Below, piece by piece: positions 2,741 to 25,937 of a stretch of 38,111 nucleotides of DNA. Both the position numbers and the translations under genes were made by a program. Source of the stretch: Prevotellaceae bacterium. Its GTDB lineage: Bacteria > Bacteroidota > Bacteroidia > Bacteroidales > UBA932. Each line of letters starts with the position of its first letter. Within the stretch, counting starts at the first letter, position 1. The stretch is from assembly GCA_031278545.1 (NCBI GenBank), contig JAITKF010000106.1, positions 1 to 38,111 on the forward strand, written 5' to 3'. Under the pieces are notes generated by a model. The model made no database searches. It was not told the origin of the DNA and saw nothing but the letters and a program-made list of their open reading frames with translations.

Positions 2741-5700
2741 TCACCGTATTACAGTGATAAATCCGGTGGCGTGTATTTCGTTTGCGTTTTCGTCCTGATA
2801 GTACAATATATGATAATATGTATCTTCTGGAACGTCGTGTCCGTTGTGTGTGCCGTCCCATCCGTCGTTGCCCTCGAAGAGCTTCCGGCCTAAACGGTCA
2901 AAGATAATTACCCGTAGCCCTTTCATAAAATAGTCGTTGATGCCGTCGCTGTTGGGCGAGAAGACTTCAGGGATGAAAAAGCCGCCGCGCAGTTTATATT
3001 GCTTGAACGCAGAGCAACCATACTGGTCGGTTACCTGAATGCGGAACTCATAACCTACATCATTATATTCAATCTGAAATGGCAATCCCTCCAGTATGCC
3101 GTCAGGCATCAGTAGGATGCCGGCAGGAAGTTGCCCTTCGATGAGGGAATATACGGGAAGGATCGCATTAGTCGTGAGTGGCTGTGCGTAGGGAATACGC
3201 CGTTTGTAGGGCGGCAACGCATCGGGCAGGACATAAAGCTCGTCGTTGACGGTTATCGTTACCGTATCGTGCACATCGGGGCAGGGATGGCGGCTAGCGG
3301 TTACTACGTAGGATTGTGTCGCGGTCAGGCTCGCCGTTAGTTCAGGCGTATTCCATGTAATATCGCCGTCGGCGTATTGGAGCGACAAGGTGATTTCGTC
3401 GCCGTAGCAAATGCGCCGGTCGTCCATCGCGATTACTTGGGGTGGCGCAGTAACGGCCACGCTTATCGCGCTCCACGTCCGACATCCGCCCTGTGTGCCG
3501 GAGGCTTCGATGTAATACATTGCATCGGTCGTTAATGGCGGCGTGGTATATGTCGGGGACTGCGCAAGGAGTGTCGAATAGCCGGCGTCGCCGTACCAGC
3601 GCAGGGTGTCGGCGGGGTTGGCGGTTGTGGCGGCGATGGTGGCGGTAACGCCGGCGCATACAGTCGTGTCGTACACGGTGATGACCGGTTGCGGGTAAAG
3701 CGTTAGGATGGCCGATGCTTCGGCGGTGCAGTGGTGTTCCGACGTTGCACGGACGTAATACGTCGCGCCGGCGGTGGCGGCAAGGCTGAATGTGCCGGAA
3801 GGCGAGATTTGGTTTGTATATTGGGCGTCGCTGTACCAGTGCAGGGTGTCGGTGGGATTGGCGGTCGTGGCGACGATGGTGACAGTAGCGCCGGCACAGG
3901 CGCTCGTATTATTCACGGTGATGACTGGTTGCGGGTAGAGCGTCAGAATGGCCGATGCTTCGGCGGTGCAGCGGTGTTCCGATGTTGCGCGGACGTAGTA
4001 CGTCGCGCCGGCGGTAGCGGTAACGCTGAATGTGCCGGAAGGCGAGATTTGGTTCGCATACCGGGCATCGCTGTACCAGCGCAGGGTATCGTGGGGATTG
4101 GCGGTTGTGGCGGCGATGACGGCGGTAGCGCCGGGGCATACAACTACATCGCCGGTTGTCAGTATGGGCGACGGATGGAGGGATACCCGCACCGAATCGT
4201 AGTTGTCGCAACTGTTATTCGATACGGATTTGACATAAAAGAGGGTGTCGGTCGTCGCTATCGTAGTGAACGATGCCCCCGACGCCACCGGTTGGGTACA
4301 GGCGGCGTCGCTGTACCACGTAAGTGTGGCGGTCGTATCCTGACTGCCGACGGAGATGACCGTCGGCGCATTTCGGCAGGCGAACACATCAGTTGTCGTC
4401 AGGGCGTTCGGCACGCCGAACAGTAGTGTGATAGTGGTGGCGGCGACGGTATCGAGCGTTACAAATACTTTATCAGCGCCGGCGAGGGTTATATGGAGCA
4501 TGGCATTATTTTGTGCGCCGGGCAATGATTGTACGGCCACGCGGATACTATTACTATCGGCAGGGAATAGCACGGTGGCGGGCAATGTGCCGAAGGAGGT
4601 AAGATCCCCCGTGTACGACAAGTTTACGTGAAAGTCGAAGGCCGACGATACGCCGGGCGGAAATGCGATGACAAAGCTGAGGCTGTCATCTTGACACAGG
4701 TCGTTCGATAAGGGGGCAAGATGAATGGGCGCGACGACGGTCAACGTGGCTTGTGCGCCTAAGGGCAATGTACGCGACATGTTCGAGATGGCGTCGGCGC
4801 CAATGATCCACTGTCCGCATTGCATAATGACGACAGGCACGGACATCATCGCCGAGTCGTACGCATATATCGACGCGCCCGATACGCCATAGGCCGAACT
4901 TCCCATCGTGCAGGCATACGTGCCGGTCAAAAAGCCGGACTGCGTGCACGCGGCGTCTATCTCCAGCCCCCGAAGGTCGACGTCAAAGCCGATGTCGGTA
5001 ATCGTTAAAGAATTATAGCTGCGATACGTCAGGTCGAGGTTCACATGGTCGCCGATATTTGCTGTCATGTCTTTACTGCCGTTCCACGTATAATCCAGTT
5101 CGCCGTCCATATCGGAGGTAAACGTCAGGCCGGTGCGTATCGTCGTCGTTTCCCCCGCCGGAATGTCGTCGTAAGCCACCCCAACGCCGTTGTCCCATGT
5201 GCTTCCGCCGGAGCAGCTAGGTACAGCGTACGGCCCGAACAGGAAGGTGTTTTGATAGTTGGATATCATATTACTTCCATTTGTAGACAAGAATGTATAA
5301 TGGGCTGATACCGCCCTGTCGAACGACCGCCCCAGCGTAAAGAACCCGATTAACGAGCCGTTGCCGCGGCTATTAATACCTCCTACCAGACGTAACCCGC
5401 GCACTTGCGCCTGCGTTAAATCCCGAGTTTGCGCCGATGAGTTCAATTGATTGTTATACCCCAAATCGGGAACAGTGATAGCCGCCCCGCCGTCGCACCC
5501 GTTTACGTATGCGTCGAAGCCGTAGGCCAGCGAAATGGGCGTACCGTGAGGGATGTTAGAGGCGTCGATAGTGGTCGACAGGATAAAATAGTCGGGATTG
5601 GAGGTATTGTAATTAATCGTGTGGATAATCGTAAACGAATTACCCTGATACGTGCCTAAGAATTGTTTGGTTATATGCTGCTGTGTGCCTGTGGTCGTAG

Positions 5701-5974
5701 CAGAGATGTCATTGATGACCAGGTTGTAGCTATGGTACACCGTCGATCCTATTTTCACGGAAAACAGGACAGTCGTGGTATAAAACTGATGAGTCCAGCT
5801 ACCGTCATACCGATATACTTGATAGCCGCCGTTGGACAGTACCTCTATCCGTAATTGATTGGTCGTGTCGCCACCAAGCGTAAAAAAATTATCCGATGCT
5901 TTGATTTCCGGAATTTGCATAACGATGCCGCATATAAAAAAGGCAACGGTATAGAGGTATTTTAATCGGAGCAT
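2741..5974 (-). CDS. Large secreted protein with Ig-like repeats and CHU_C-type T9SS C-terminal domain
   Basis: 1077 residues. An N-terminal hydrophobic signal peptide (about residues 1-26, probably cleaved after KAS) is followed by a long beta-rich region. Residues about 530-860 hold four Ig-like repeats of 80 residues, each with a Cys near its start and a TLRWYSDA-like core. A putative cadherin/Ig segment (LPAGILLMPDGILEG) lies near 945-960. The last ~80 residues (FIPEVFSPNSDGINDYF, IFDRLGRKLFEG, GWDGTHNG) are the gliding-motility-associated/CHU_C domain that directs type B cargo to the type IX secretion system. It is inferred to be secreted and surface attached. No enzymatic motif was recognised, so adhesin or matrix protein is an inference. 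T9SS genes porG and plug lie elsewhere in the window. Confidence 0.85.
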   Translation of the reverse strand: MLRLKYLYTVAFFICGIVMQIPEIKASDNFFTLGGDTTNQLRIEVLSNGGYQVYRYDGSWTHQFYTTTVLFSVKIGSTVYHSYNLVINDISATTTGTQQHITKQFLGTYQGNSFTIIHTINYNTSNPDYFILSTTIDASNIPHGTPISLAYGFDAYVNGCDGGAAITVPDLGYNNQLNSSAQTRDLTQAQVRGLRLVGGINSRGNGSLIGFFTLGRSFDRAVSAHYTFLSTNGSNMISNYQNTFLFGPYAVPSCSGGSTWDNGVGVAYDDIPAGETTTIRTGLTFTSDMDGELDYTWNGSKDMTANIGDHVNLDLTYRSYNSLTITDIGFDVDLRGLEIDAACTQSGFLTGTYACTMGSSAYGVSGASIYAYDSAMMSVPVVIMQCGQWIIGADAISNMSRTLPLGAQATLTVVAPIHLAPLSNDLCQDDSLSFVIAFPPGVSSAFDFHVNLSYTGDLTSFGTLPATVLFPADSNSIRVAVQSLPGAQNNAMLHITLAGADKVFVTLDTVAATTITLLFGVPNALTTTDVFACRNAPTVISVGSQDTTATLTWYSDAACTQPVASGASFTTIATTDTLFYVKSVSNNSCDNYDSVRVSLHPSPILTTGDVVVCPGATAVIAATTANPHDTLRWYSDARYANQISPSGTFSVTATAGATYYVRATSEHRCTAEASAILTLYPQPVITVNNTSACAGATVTIVATTANPTDTLHWYSDAQYTNQISPSGTFSLAATAGATYYVRATSEHHCTAEASAILTLYPQPVITVYDTTVCAGVTATIAATTANPADTLRWYGDAGYSTLLAQSPTYTTPPLTTDAMYYIEASGTQGGCRTWSAISVAVTAPPQVIAMDDRRICYGDEITLSLQYADGDITWNTPELTASLTATQSYVVTASRHPCPDVHDTVTITVNDELYVLPDALPPYKRRIPYAQPLTTNAILPVYSLIEGQLPAGILLMPDGILEGLPFQIEYNDVGYEFRIQVTDQYGCSAFKQYKLRGGFFIPEVFSPNSDGINDYFMKGLRVIIFDRLGRKLFEGNDGWDGTHNGHDVPEDTYYHILYYQDENANEIHATGFITVIR
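3480..4420 (-). repeat. Tandem 240-bp coding repeats in the T9SS cargo gene
   Basis: The conserved core CYGTACCA recurs at 3591, 3831, 4071 and 4311, exactly 240 bp (80 codons) apart. The middle units are the closest, sharing long near-identical stretches such as GGATGGCCGATGCTTCGGCG near 3710 and 3950. This indicates recent duplication or gene conversion. The outer units have diverged at protein level but keep their length. Confidence 0.85.
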
Positions 5975-21566: not shown

Positions 21567-24119
21567 TTAAAATTGCATTCCGAAGGTAAAGGCGAAGTTT
21601 CCGCCGTTGGCGTTCGGGTAGTCTTTGACTGTGTCGAAGCCATAGCCCCAGTCGATGCCCAAAATGCCGACAATCGGTAACATGATTTTGACGCCTACGC
21701 CGGCTGCGCGCTTAATGGCAAATGGGTTGAACCGGGCTATGTCCGACCATGCATTGCCGCCTTCCAAAAAGAGACAGGCATAGATTGAGGCTTGCTGTTC
21801 CATGATTACCGGATGCCGTAGTTCCAGTGTGAATTTGTCGTAGATGTGTCCGGCGTATGCGCCGTCGACTAAGGGGGTGATTGATGAGTTGGCATATCCG
21901 CGCAGGGCGATATTTTCTTGTCCGTACCGGTTGAAGCCGGCCATGCCGTCGCCGCCAAGTACAAATCCTTCAAAGGGTGAATAGCCTAATTGTTTGTTGA
22001 AGTACCCCAAATAGCCGAACTGCGCCCGCGTAACTATGACCAGGTCGCCGACGATTTGCGTAAACAATGCTCCCTTGAACGTCCATTTATGAAATTCAAT
22101 CCATTTATAGCGTTCGGCGGCGGTCATTGATTGGTAGTCGGTTGATGCGGGACGGAAGAGCGAGTAGGGCGGCGTTACCTGCAATCCGATGGAGAAGTCA
22201 GAACCCCGACGCGGGTAGAACGGCTGGTCGGTCGAGTTGCGCGACAGCATAATTCGCCAGTTCAGGTTATTCGACGTGCCGTCGGAAAAGCCGTAATAGC
22301 TGGCCGGCCAGTCGTGCAAGTCGTATCGTTGGAGGTTGATTTCGTTGTAGAGTTGGAAATAGTTGTCAGGCCATTTCAGGTAGCGTCCGATGCCGACCGA
22401 GAGGCCGAAGGTGTTCATCCATTTGTCGACGGTTTGGAGGGTATAGTAGGAGGCATTGGTTTCACGCGTGAAGTAAGCGGTTAGCGATAGCGAATTGCGT
22501 TTTTTTCCGCCCAGCCACGGTTCTACGAAATTAAAAGAGAAGGCTTGGTAGTAGTCGCCTTGCATCTGGAAGCGCAGGGCTAGTGTTTGGCCGTCGCCCG
22601 ACGGTACCGGTCGCCATGCGCGGCTGTCGAACAGGCGGCGCAATGAGAAGTTTGTGAATCGCAAGCCGACTGTTCCAACAAAAGTATTGCCGCCCCATCC
22701 GCCGGAGAGTTCCAGCTGGTCGTTGGCTTTTTCCGTCAGGTTATAGGTCATGTCTACTGTGCCGTCTTGCGGGTTGGGGGTTATCCGAAAGCCCGAGCCG
22801 TCGGGCGAGAGCAGGCGTTCGGGGTCGAAGTTGCCGTTAGTGGCCAGTTCGCGTAATGATCGTTCCCATCCTGACGCGCGGCTATACAGGTATCCGGGCT
22901 TTGTCCATAGTTCGCGACGGATTACTCGTTCGTTGGTTTTTGTGTTGCCGTTGATGATAATTCGGTTCCAGCGCGCCTGATCGCCTTCCTGCATGCGTAT
23001 TTCTATGTCGATGGAGTCGCCGACGACATTGGTTTCGACCGGCATGGCATTGAAGAATAAATATCCGTTATCGTTGTACCATGTGCTGATGGTCAGTTTT
23101 TTTTCGTCGGTGCCGCCCAGCATAGTGTTCAGCAGGATATTGTCGTAGATGTCGCCTTTTTTGATACCCAGTATGTCGTTCAGGGCTTGTGTGGATAGTT
23201 TGGAATTACCGACCCATGAAATGTTTCGGAAATAGTATTGTTTTCCTTCGTCGACGACTAATTTGATGCCTAATCGTTTTTCGTTGATGACATAAATCGA
23301 GTCGCTGACGATGCGGGCATCGCGATAGCCACGTTCGTTGTATTTGGTGATGATGTTCTGCTTGTCGTTTTCAAATTCATCTTCTTTGAATTTTTTACTG
23401 CTGAAAAGGTTCCAGATGGTATTTGCTTTGGTTTTTTTCATTGCCCGCGCCAATTTACGGTTCGACAGTTCTTTGTTGCCGTCGAAGGAGATTTCTTTAA
23501 TCAGTACCTTCTTTTTGCGGTCGATGTCGAATGTAATCTGTATGGCATTATTTACAATTGTGTCGTTGGTTTGTATGATATTGACTTCGGCGTTGAGGTA
23601 GCCTTTTTCCGCATAGTATTTTTTGATGTTGTCAATGGCCGTGTTGATTACAAATTCCGAGTACTCGCTACCGCGCCGGAGGTTGAGGCGTCCGGTCAAA
23701 TCTTCCTGCGCTCCTTTTTTGATGCCGGAAAATTTCCACAGCGATACACGTGGCCGTTCGGCGAGATAGATATTCAAATAAATTTTATTGTCTACTACTT
23801 TTGTGGCGGAGATGGAAATATCGGAAAAGTAGCGTATCCCCCACAGTTTCCGCGCGGCTTTTGAGAGTTCTTCGCCCGGGATCATAATGGTGTCGCCGAC
23901 CGACAAGTTGGTTAACGACAGGATTTGTTCGGAGGTATAGTGTTTTACGCCGGAGACTGTAATGTCGCCGATGATATATTGTTTTGGGTTCGAGTAGTCG
24001 AACGTAATGTTTATCTGTGTGCTGTCGGAAGATTGTGCTGTTGCATAAAAAGCACAAAGGAAGAGCGCCGAGAATATACCGGTGCGCAGTAGCTGTATTT
24101 TTTTGAGTAATAATTTCAT
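21567..24119 (-). CDS. bamA: Outer membrane protein assembly factor BamA (Omp85)
   Basis: 850 residues. Signal peptide (ending CAFYATAQ), five POTRA domains between about residues 35 and 440 (segments such as GDITVSGVKHYTSEQILSL and KVLIKEISFDGNKELSNRKL), and an Omp85 beta-barrel in the C-terminal ~380 residues. The last residue is Phe (FAFTFGMQF), the beta-signal expected of outer-membrane proteins. It is the essential insertase for outer-membrane beta-barrels, working with the Skp homologues encoded next. A -7 box at 24154-24161 suggests an additional promoter inside the end of the upstream repeat ORF. Confidence 0.95.
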   Translation of the reverse strand: MKLLLKKIQLLRTGIFSALFLCAFYATAQSSDSTQINITFDYSNPKQYIIGDITVSGVKHYTSEQILSLTNLSVGDTIMIPGEELSKAARKLWGIRYFSDISISATKVVDNKIYLNIYLAERPRVSLWKFSGIKKGAQEDLTGRLNLRRGSEYSEFVINTAIDNIKKYYAEKGYLNAEVNIIQTNDTIVNNAIQITFDIDRKKKVLIKEISFDGNKELSNRKLARAMKKTKANTIWNLFSSKKFKEDEFENDKQNIITKYNERGYRDARIVSDSIYVINEKRLGIKLVVDEGKQYYFRNISWVGNSKLSTQALNDILGIKKGDIYDNILLNTMLGGTDEKKLTISTWYNDNGYLFFNAMPVETNVVGDSIDIEIRMQEGDQARWNRIIINGNTKTNERVIRRELWTKPGYLYSRASGWERSLRELATNGNFDPERLLSPDGSGFRITPNPQDGTVDMTYNLTEKANDQLELSGGWGGNTFVGTVGLRFTNFSLRRLFDSRAWRPVPSGDGQTLALRFQMQGDYYQAFSFNFVEPWLGGKKRNSLSLTAYFTRETNASYYTLQTVDKWMNTFGLSVGIGRYLKWPDNYFQLYNEINLQRYDLHDWPASYYGFSDGTSNNLNWRIMLSRNSTDQPFYPRRGSDFSIGLQVTPPYSLFRPASTDYQSMTAAERYKWIEFHKWTFKGALFTQIVGDLVIVTRAQFGYLGYFNKQLGYSPFEGFVLGGDGMAGFNRYGQENIALRGYANSSITPLVDGAYAGHIYDKFTLELRHPVIMEQQASIYACLFLEGGNAWSDIARFNPFAIKRAAGVGVKIMLPIVGILGIDWGYGFDTVKDYPNANGGNFAFTFGMQF

Positions 24120-24124
24120 GCAAC

Positions 24125-24427
24125 TTAATTCAATGGTTTGTCAAAATAGCGTGCAAATATAGTAAAAAAAACATAAACGGGCAGCCCGGATGGAAAAGGC
24201 CGGAGAAAATACGCGCGTAGTTGGGCAAAATATGCGTGCATTCGGGCAAAATACGTGCGTAGTTGGGCAGAATACGCGCGCATTCGGAGAAAATACGCAC
24301 GTAGTTTCTGCAAGCATGCCGGAGGTCGACGAAAAGGCGTCGAACGTCGACGAAAAGATGCCAGAGGTCGGGGTAAGCGCGCCTCTGCGAAGCCGGTGGG
24401 GGCGGTTTTATCGGTCGGGCGCGTCAT
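24125..24427 (-). CDS. Heptad-repeat ORF between uppS and bamA, function unknown
   Basis: 100 codons. Its ATG overlaps the uppS stop in an ATGA arrangement (24424-24427) and its stop lies five bases before the bamA ATG. The N-terminal third is Arg/Pro-rich and basic. The middle has five heptads, LRAYFLR, MRAYSAQ, LRTYFAR, MHAYFAQ, LRAYFLR, with Tyr-Phe or Tyr-Ser at a fixed position. The C-terminus ends in an aromatic stretch (PVYVFFTIFARYF). A signal peptide was not recognised. The exact fit in the operon argues for translation. Against it, 21-bp repeats without stops are also open on the opposite strand (24190-24429), and no family is known to me. It could be a repeat expansion without function. 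Confidence 0.4.
   Translation of the reverse strand: MTRPTDKTAPTGFAEARLPRPLASFRRRSTPFRRPPACLQKLRAYFLRMRAYSAQLRTYFARMHAYFAQLRAYFLRPFPSGLPVYVFFTIFARYFDKPLN
24154..24161 (-). promoter_or_regulatory. -7 box for bamA
   Basis: Minus-strand TATATTTG, matching TAnnTTTG, 34 bases before the bamA ATG. No clear -33 box. Confidence 0.4.
24202..24378. repeat. Two arrays of 21-bp tandem repeats
   Basis: Array 1: five 21-bp units at 24202-24306, alternating two types that end TAGTT or CATTC, so there is also a 42-bp period. Array 2: three 21-bp units at 24316-24378 with a different consensus (ATGCCGGAGGTCGACGAAAAG). A 9-bp spacer separates them. The units are whole numbers of codons, and no stop occurs in one frame on either strand. 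Confidence 0.92.
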
Positions 24428-25164
24428 AGCTGTTGTTTGATTTGTTCGCCTGTTTTGCCGTAGCGACGTTCGCGGTGGCTGTATTCCTGTAAAGCTTCAC
24501 GGAAGTGCGGTTTGCGGAAATCAGGCCACAGGATGTCCGTAAAGTAAAGTTCTGTGTAGGCCAGTTGCCACAACATAAAATTGCTGATGCGCTGTTCGCC
24601 GCCGGTGCGAATCAGCAGGTCGGGCACGGGTATGCCAGCGGTAACCAAGTAGTTGTCTATCATTCCGGCGTTGCATTCCGACAGGCGGCATTTGCCTTGC
24701 ACGACGTCGGCGGCATAGCGTTTAAAAGCTTCTGTGATGTCCCACTTTCCGCTATAACTCAATGCCAGAATTAAGGTCATCGTGCGACCGGCGGCGGTGC
24801 GGTCGACGCATTCCTGCAGTTTGGCATGTACGTCGGCGGGCAGCATGTCGCGACAACCGATGTATTGCAGGCGGATGCCGTTTTTGAGCAATGTCGGCGT
24901 TTCGTTGCGGATGGCATCGGCCAGCAGCCCCATCAGCCCGTTGACTTCCATTGCCGGCCGTTGCCAGTTTTCTTCGGAAAACGTGTAAAGCGTCAAATAT
25001 TGCACGCCTGTTTCGGCCGCGCATTCGACGATATCACGCACCGCCGTAATGGCATTCCGGTGGCCGAAAATACGGTTTTGCATCCGCCGTTTGGCCCACC
25101 GGCCATTGCCGTCCATGATGACCGCCACGTGAGTCGGGATTTTTTCCGGGACTTTTTCAGGCAT
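24424..25164 (-). CDS. uppS: Undecaprenyl diphosphate synthase
   Basis: 246 residues from the ATG at 25164, which matches the family length (an in-frame upstream extension overlaps porG and is rejected). Conserved motifs: HVAVIMDGNGRWA with catalytic D18, GHRNA, TLYTFSEENWQRP and RTGGEQRISNFMLWQLAYTE. The enzyme condenses eight isopentenyl diphosphates onto farnesyl diphosphate to make the C55 carrier lipid for peptidoglycan and surface glycans, at the inner face of the cytoplasmic membrane. It starts 17 bases after porG, and its stop overlaps the heptad-repeat ORF. Confidence 0.95.
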   Translation of the reverse strand: MPEKVPEKIPTHVAVIMDGNGRWAKRRMQNRIFGHRNAITAVRDIVECAAETGVQYLTLYTFSEENWQRPAMEVNGLMGLLADAIRNETPTLLKNGIRLQYIGCRDMLPADVHAKLQECVDRTAAGRTMTLILALSYSGKWDITEAFKRYAADVVQGKCRLSECNAGMIDNYLVTAGIPVPDLLIRTGGEQRISNFMLWQLAYTELYFTDILWPDFRKPHFREALQEYSHRERRYGKTGEQIKQQL

Positions 25165-25181
25165 ACTGTTGTCAGATTTAT

Positions 25182-25937
25182 TTATGGATTTACTCTCCCT
25201 TTTAGCGTACGGGTCGCCGGCGTGCGTTGCGAATAGGCCGGGCACAGGCGGTCTTCGGACAGACGGTAGGTAACGACCACGCCCACCGTGCCTATCCAAT
25301 CATTATTTATAAGTATGGAACCGGGCGGGCTGACGACATAGTCGATTTTATCGGTAAACGTTTTACGCATGCTCCATTCTACGCCTACCGTGATGCGTTT
25401 CCAAACAGCCCATTTTACGCCGACGCCTACTTGCAGGTATAAGCTTGATGGCACATCGTCGTTCTCGACGTTGGACGATAGCGCATGGTCGGCTGTTAAA
25501 GCGGCGATGCCAATGCCGCCCAATAAATAGGGAGATATCCGGTTGTTTTTCCGCAGCCGGACGACATCGAACGGTAAGAAACCGACTTCGCCGCTTACCT
25601 CCGCCAATAATATCGGGCGCACGAAATGCCACGGCAATCCCCCGTTGGTCTGCGGCAAGTCGGAACGAGTGCGGTCGCCCTCCAGCCGCCCGTAGGCCGC
25701 CTGTCCACGCAATGCGTAATATTCATTGAAATTATACCGGTACAATACCCCTGCATAATAGGATGGAGTACGGAAAAAGGAATAGTTGTCGCCCAAATCG
25801 CCCATATAAAAAGTAATGCCGCCGGCGACGCCCACATCGTGACTCTCGCGGTACGGACAGTCGTCCTGTGCGCTTAATGTAAGCGGGGAAACGAGTACTA
25901 CTATGCAGAGTAACGCCTTTTTGATTAGAAACGCCAT
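25182..25937 (-). CDS. porG: PorG-like DUF6089 outer membrane protein (T9SS)
   Basis: 251 residues with a signal peptide (MAFLIKKALLCIVVLVSPLTLSAQ). Alternating strands follow, typical of a small outer-membrane barrel: VGVAGGITFYMGDLGDNY, YYAGVLYRYNF, YYALRGQAAYGRLEGDR, SPYLLGGIGIAAL, WKRITVGVEWSMRKTFTDKIDYV. The GGxxxYxGDL motif and position between nadK and uppS match the DUF6089 family. Its Porphyromonas gingivalis member PorG is a T9SS outer-membrane component associated with the PorK/PorN ring. The C-terminus extends beyond the last strand with a Thr/Arg-rich tail, so the barrel end is uncertain. Confidence 0.8.
   Translation of the reverse strand: MAFLIKKALLCIVVLVSPLTLSAQDDCPYRESHDVGVAGGITFYMGDLGDNYSFFRTPSYYAGVLYRYNFNEYYALRGQAAYGRLEGDRTRSDLPQTNGGLPWHFVRPILLAEVSGEVGFLPFDVVRLRKNNRISPYLLGGIGIAALTADHALSSNVENDDVPSSLYLQVGVGVKWAVWKRITVGVEWSMRKTFTDKIDYVVSPPGSILINNDWIGTVGVVVTYRLSEDRLCPAYSQRTPATRTLKGRVNP

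Follow-up and report, generated by a model that had tools for sequence, protein, structure and literature searches.

The open reading frame that separates uppS from bamA is almost certainly a by-product of a decayed 21-bp minisatellite

Does the 100-codon open reading frame P0001, which occupies the space between uppS and bamA in the window (the whole 38,111-nucleotide stretch of DNA analysed here), encode a protein, or is it repetitive DNA that happens to lack stop codons? Both answers were offered by the original prediction, which proposed either a newly expanded, translated peptide or a non-coding minisatellite that stays open by chance. The genome containing the window (G000; a 2.08-Mb draft, 79% complete) was compared with those of eight congeners (G001–G008). 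On the basis of these comparisons P0001 is almost certainly a spurious open reading frame and a by-product of a decayed minisatellite; a 21-bp unit without stops stays open in each of its copies, which makes P0001 incidental. We further conclude, with a probability of about 0.88, that the uppS-bamA array is a non-coding and partly decayed member of a genus-specific class of ~21-bp, palindrome-centred tandem arrays; the array at this locus is itself weak (71% matches, palindrome p ~0.04), so that its assignment depends on its form and on related units at other loci. The prediction of a peptide at bamA is ordinary once examined, while the array class behind P0001 is unusual; a false gene is removed and replaced by a more general observation on the genus.

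Anatomy and evolution of the uppS-bamA interval

P0001 lies on the minus strand, which the prediction had not specified, and its borders are as described there. The ATG shares the four bases ATGA with the TGA of uppS, and five bases, GTTGC, separate the TAA at 24127-24125 from the ATG of bamA. Five heptads (LRAYFLR, MRAYSAQ, LRTYFAR, MHAYFAQ and LRAYFLR) are encoded by array 1, again as predicted, and TRF describes this array with a period of 21 bp x 4.8 and 71% matches or, better, as 42 bp x 2.5 with 84%. The second 21-bp repeat (array 2) is present as well; it had been placed after the heptads but precedes them when read in the direction of P0001. Head-to-tail copies of a unit of 10-60 bp (21 x 4.8 and 21 x 2.6 by TRF) are the mark of a minisatellite, and no tandem array of comparable strength was obtained from shuffled windows or from 300 shuffles of the 303 bp. 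The units are contiguous and their spacers alike between units, which sets the locus apart from a CRISPR. Elsewhere in the window, a long minus-strand open reading frame (2741-5974) contains a tandem repeat of 240 bp at 3584-4134 (2.3 copies, 85%).

Table 1. Features of the uppS-bamA interval and its neighbours, with coordinates in the window.
Feature	Coordinates	Strand	Basis or remark
P0001, open reading frame of 100 codons, ATG start	24125..24427	minus (24427->24125)	judged spurious: frame not kept in G008, no third-position excess
Array 1, ~five units of 21 bp (higher-order repeat of 42 bp) centred on palindrome TACGCGCGTA / TACGYRCGTA	24201..24306		TRF
Array 2, a different 21-bp repeat (~2.6 units) centred on TCGTCGAC	24316..24370		TRF
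uppS (undecaprenyl diphosphate synthase), upstream neighbour	24424..25299	minus	PF01255, E 3e-80; true start probably near 25164
bamA (outer-membrane assembly, five POTRA stretches), downstream neighbour	21567..24119	minus	PF07244; orthologues in 40 of the 41 genomes searched
TAnnTTTG box of bamA (TATATTTG), presumed -7-type promoter, within the P0001 3' end	24154..24161	minus	conserved in the genus

The two flanking genes had been described as usually adjacent and they are: in most of the family's other genera the distance from uppS to bamA is about -8 to 60 bp, with no open reading frame like P0001 between them. In five congeners (G001, G002, G004, G006 and G007), no uppS was found immediately ahead of bamA, the available flank being short in some of these. 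All nine species of the genus, the five just named among them, have a TAnnTTTG box ahead of bamA, which we take from general knowledge of Bacteroidota to be a -7-type promoter. At the equivalent site, G003 has a different two-copy repeat with the core GACGTACGAC and G005 has a gap of 80 bp without an array, and an equivalent of P0001 is absent from both.

The closest species to G000 is G008, in which BamA is 95% identical. Its uppS-bamA intergenic region is homologous to that of G000, but array 1 has three units (63 bp) fewer and 2+2 nucleotides are added close to the 5' end, so that the copy number differs by three units in this species-level comparison. TTTTCGTCGAC is kept in both units of array 2 in G008, with spacers that differ. 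Owing to the indels, the shared ATG leads into an unrelated frame of 79 residues, and the frame homologous to P0001 contains both a TGA and a TAA. The differences between the two species are distributed over the codon positions of the P0001 region as 12/19/11 (of 80 each), compared to 33/12/169 (of 851) in the bamA control. Across the array region five of the six frames are without stops, including all of those on the minus strand, and the open frame at the array therefore carries no coding signal. A search with the 100-residue product returned neither a protein family nor a solved structure. Frame changes and stops in relatives had been named beforehand as evidence that would count against a peptide, and both were found; changes in repeat number other than multiples of three had been named too, and here the difference of 63 bp (3 x 21) is a multiple of three, which is uninformative because it is automatic for a 21-bp unit.

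A small basic/aromatic amphipathic protein, ATGA-coupled to uppS and acting at the membrane, is suggested by the overlap with uppS and by 100 open codons of heptad character, but is highly improbable given the broken frame and the stops in the nearest species, the absence of a third-position excess, the openness of all minus-strand frames across the array, the lack of any family or structure match and the overlap of the P0001 end with the conserved bamA promoter box. The translated peptide was rejected by the frame, codon-position and openness tests, and it is the second possibility in the original prediction, a non-coding minisatellite, that these tests support. The array at bamA probably adds little or nothing beyond a longer uppS-bamA spacer. 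As to the proposal that its copy number might tune bamA expression, the array does stop ~40 bp short of the promoter box, on the upstream side.

Distribution of 21-bp arrays in the genus

In genome samples from the genus, the periods of intergenic tandem arrays cluster at 21 bp and at 42 bp (2 x 21), and in G000 also at 23 bp. G003 contains 40 arrays with periods of 20-22, 42 or 63 bp in 311 kb, which corresponds to 129/Mb and 2.45% of bases, a count that includes two 63-bp-period arrays which are possibly coding repeats. Counted over the same periods, G000 is poor in such arrays, with 6 in 412 kb (~15/Mb). For G001, G002 and G004-G008 only 9-51 kb each was sampled; 5 arrays were counted in 38 kb of G001, 3 in 35 kb of G005 and 2 in 16 kb of G008, and none of the class in the small samples of G002, G006 and G007. 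Other genera of the family together with four other families yielded 3 arrays in ~830 kb, and diverse Bacteroidota (79 loci, 502 kb) yielded none. Some loci were picked for their resemblance to the heptad open reading frame and are biased to period 21, and the densities are accordingly drawn from unselected samples only. In G003, a sequence end is no more than 60 bp away from 9 of the 40 arrays, a sign that arrays contribute to the breaking of metagenome assemblies; the genomes are incomplete MAGs with arrays often at contig ends, and copy numbers are therefore lower bounds.

The bamA unit has both features of the class, a period of 21 bp and a palindromic core, although its palindrome (p ~0.04) is weak compared to the G003 arrays. 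Units related to it are present at other loci in G000 and G008. Arrays of this class are gained and lost at the same sites: an array present in one species is absent from the orthologous site of another (G005 versus G003, G003 versus G000 and G004 versus G006), and at one site unrelated arrays replace each other, with a 23-bp period in G000 and a 21-bp period in G003. The turnover at the bamA locus matches that at the other sites compared between species. What emerges is a genus with up to ~2.5% of sampled DNA (G003) in 21-bp tandem arrays, most of them palindromic, in a near-fixed register and with different sequences, and also a warning that 21-bp arrays yield spurious heptad-repeat open reading frames.

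Four intergenic 23-bp arrays were also observed in G000 (L071:9845-9955, L066:15166-15378, L067:12354-12488 and L059:16385-16497), three of which are palindromic.

Palindromic units, their growth and their possible roles

The units contain a perfect or nearly perfect palindrome, for example AAACGGACGTCCGTTT, TCCGAGAGCTCTCGGA, AAACGTGCGCACGTTT, AGTTACGTAACT or TTTCCGACGTCGGAAA, and a short spacer then completes the ~21 bp. Among the G003 arrays that are short enough to test, 21 are palindromic at p<=0.05 relative to shuffles of their own unit. The ratio of arm to spacer variability is 0.44, compared to 0.99 +- 0.15 for column permutations (0/100 of which reach 0.44), and the palindrome cores are ~2.3 times more conserved than the spacers. 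Among units there is no covariation between the arms (1964 Watson-Crick cells observed vs 1965 expected) and no wobble strand bias (55 G-T, 49 A-C). Judged from these alignments of units, the arms are conserved as sequence, and selection for pairing finds no support. Units are mostly unrelated between loci, with 47 of 60 being singletons at 17/21 matches, and similar unit pairs exceed those in shuffles (44 vs 6 at >=14 matches). Five separate loci of G003 share the 16-bp core AAACGGACGTCCGTTT, which forms an array in 21-bp steps at four of them, and the 5-bp spacers at these loci mostly differ (C5 and C100 have CAGTA in common).

We infer that the arrays would grow by tandem duplication of a short palindromic sequence, through slippage or template switching at hairpins, and give this mechanism roughly even odds. 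An apparent absence of the SbcD exonuclease from the family possibly lets palindromes be tolerated: the cut-off for SbcD (TIGR00619) was reached in no genome of the family that was searched, compared to 7/12 genomes from other families of the order. Loss of SbcD as the sole cause is excluded, since it is also missing in related genera without arrays, and loss of mismatch repair does not apply, MutS being present in 9/9 genomes of the genus. The palindromic cores would then be kept either by the duplication mechanism itself or as helically phased sites for a dimeric DNA-binding protein, 21 bp being equivalent to two helical turns. The choice between a mutation mechanism and a selected form as the origin of bacterial minisatellites is one that can be tested by comparing close species.

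The arrays could alternatively be phased operators, with palindromes spaced by 21 bp so that dimeric regulators or nucleoid proteins would bind along the same side of the helix; the operators at this locus would tune the bamA promoter. Such a role is in keeping with the 21-bp register, with the stronger conservation of cores relative to spacers, with the recurrence of one core beside different spacers at several loci, and with the position of the bamA array, which ends ~40 bp upstream of the promoter box. However, with most arrays having a palindrome of their own many proteins would be needed, the gap between palindrome arms is variable (0 to 9 bp), divergent or promoter-side intergenic regions are not clearly preferred, and arrays are gained and lost between close species. 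We therefore regard operators as unlikely. Also doubtful is a specific process that would write or maintain phased 21-bp tandem palindromes in intergenic DNA, at as many as a few hundred sites in each genome, and be guided by form more than by sequence. Its agent would be either a generator enzyme or a family of operator-binding proteins, and the array at bamA would be one of its products in decay.

A further idea is that the arrays act as RNA, with transcribed hairpins stabilising or terminating transcripts. The folding of array transcripts from G003 and G008 is indeed much stronger than that of shuffled sequence (z -7 to -15 for six arrays), and the bamA array has a z of -3.05 on the coding strand and -0.99 on the non-coding strand. 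However, palindromic DNA gives strong folding on either strand, no Rfam match was found, and the units show neither the G-T/A-C asymmetry nor the covariation expected at the RNA level, on which grounds RNA-level hairpin selection was rejected. A terminator role was rejected as well, there being no enrichment of arrays between convergent genes (4/34 compared to 61/287 in the background). A function in RNA is accordingly improbable, and duplication of palindromic DNA remains our preferred account of how the arrays grow.

Relation to known repeat systems

The nearest known kind to the present arrays is BrickBuilt of Porphyromonas gingivalis, which consists of intergenic 23-nt tandem arrays within one MITE family, and whose 19 copies make up 0.44% of the genome and have a leader, a tail and IS5-like terminal repeats (PMC4596501). 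Both kinds are found in Bacteroidales as species-restricted, intergenic tandem units of about two helical turns (23 nt in BrickBuilt) without spacers between them, both have conserved and variable parts within the unit, and both are sometimes mis-annotated as hypothetical genes. The present arrays differ in that they are mainly 21 bp, palindromic and mostly unrelated between loci, occupy 2.45% of the sampled G003 DNA, and are without shared ends (flanks inspected by eye), which places them outside BrickBuilt itself. That they might nevertheless all stem from a single non-autonomous mobile element with a minisatellite inside it is suggested by the dispersal of some cores and units and by the arrays missing at orthologous sites; against this, most units are unrelated in sequence, and inspection by eye of the flanks of 18 arrays revealed no leader, tail or terminal inverted repeats in common, which leaves a single mobile element with a low probability.

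REP and BIME elements resemble the arrays in being short intergenic palindromes that are sometimes clustered, but the arrays consist of contiguous units in a fixed 21-bp register and involve many unrelated palindromes. The RAYT protein (PF01797, Y1_Tnp) was found only in G002 and G004 and not in G000, G001, G003 or G005-G008 (these genomes being incomplete), and REP elements driven by RAYT were rejected given its absence from 7/9 genomes of the genus. Our literature search, with most subscription journals outside its reach, found no report of palindromic arrays of 21 bp from Bacteroidales or from bacteria of termite guts, nor any genus described as having many such arrays of unrelated sequence.

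Heptanucleotide STRR repeats are known from cyanobacteria. Heptamer arrays (AATTACG and others) are common in the genus too, near the 21-bp arrays, but the palindromic 21-bp arrays are another form; 21 is three times seven, yet most units are not three heptamers. In the G003 samples (L201-L220), heptamer arrays including AATTACG and TTCATAC are frequent, and a heptamer array lies within 300 bp of 11/37 21-bp arrays, compared to 3.6 expected at random positions, an excess that arises partly because both are intergenic. Neighbouring heptamer arrays in G003 are usually inverted pairs (of those within 600 bp of each other, 10 are inverted and 1 has the same orientation), and one such pair (L205:2643-2844) encloses another long dyad.
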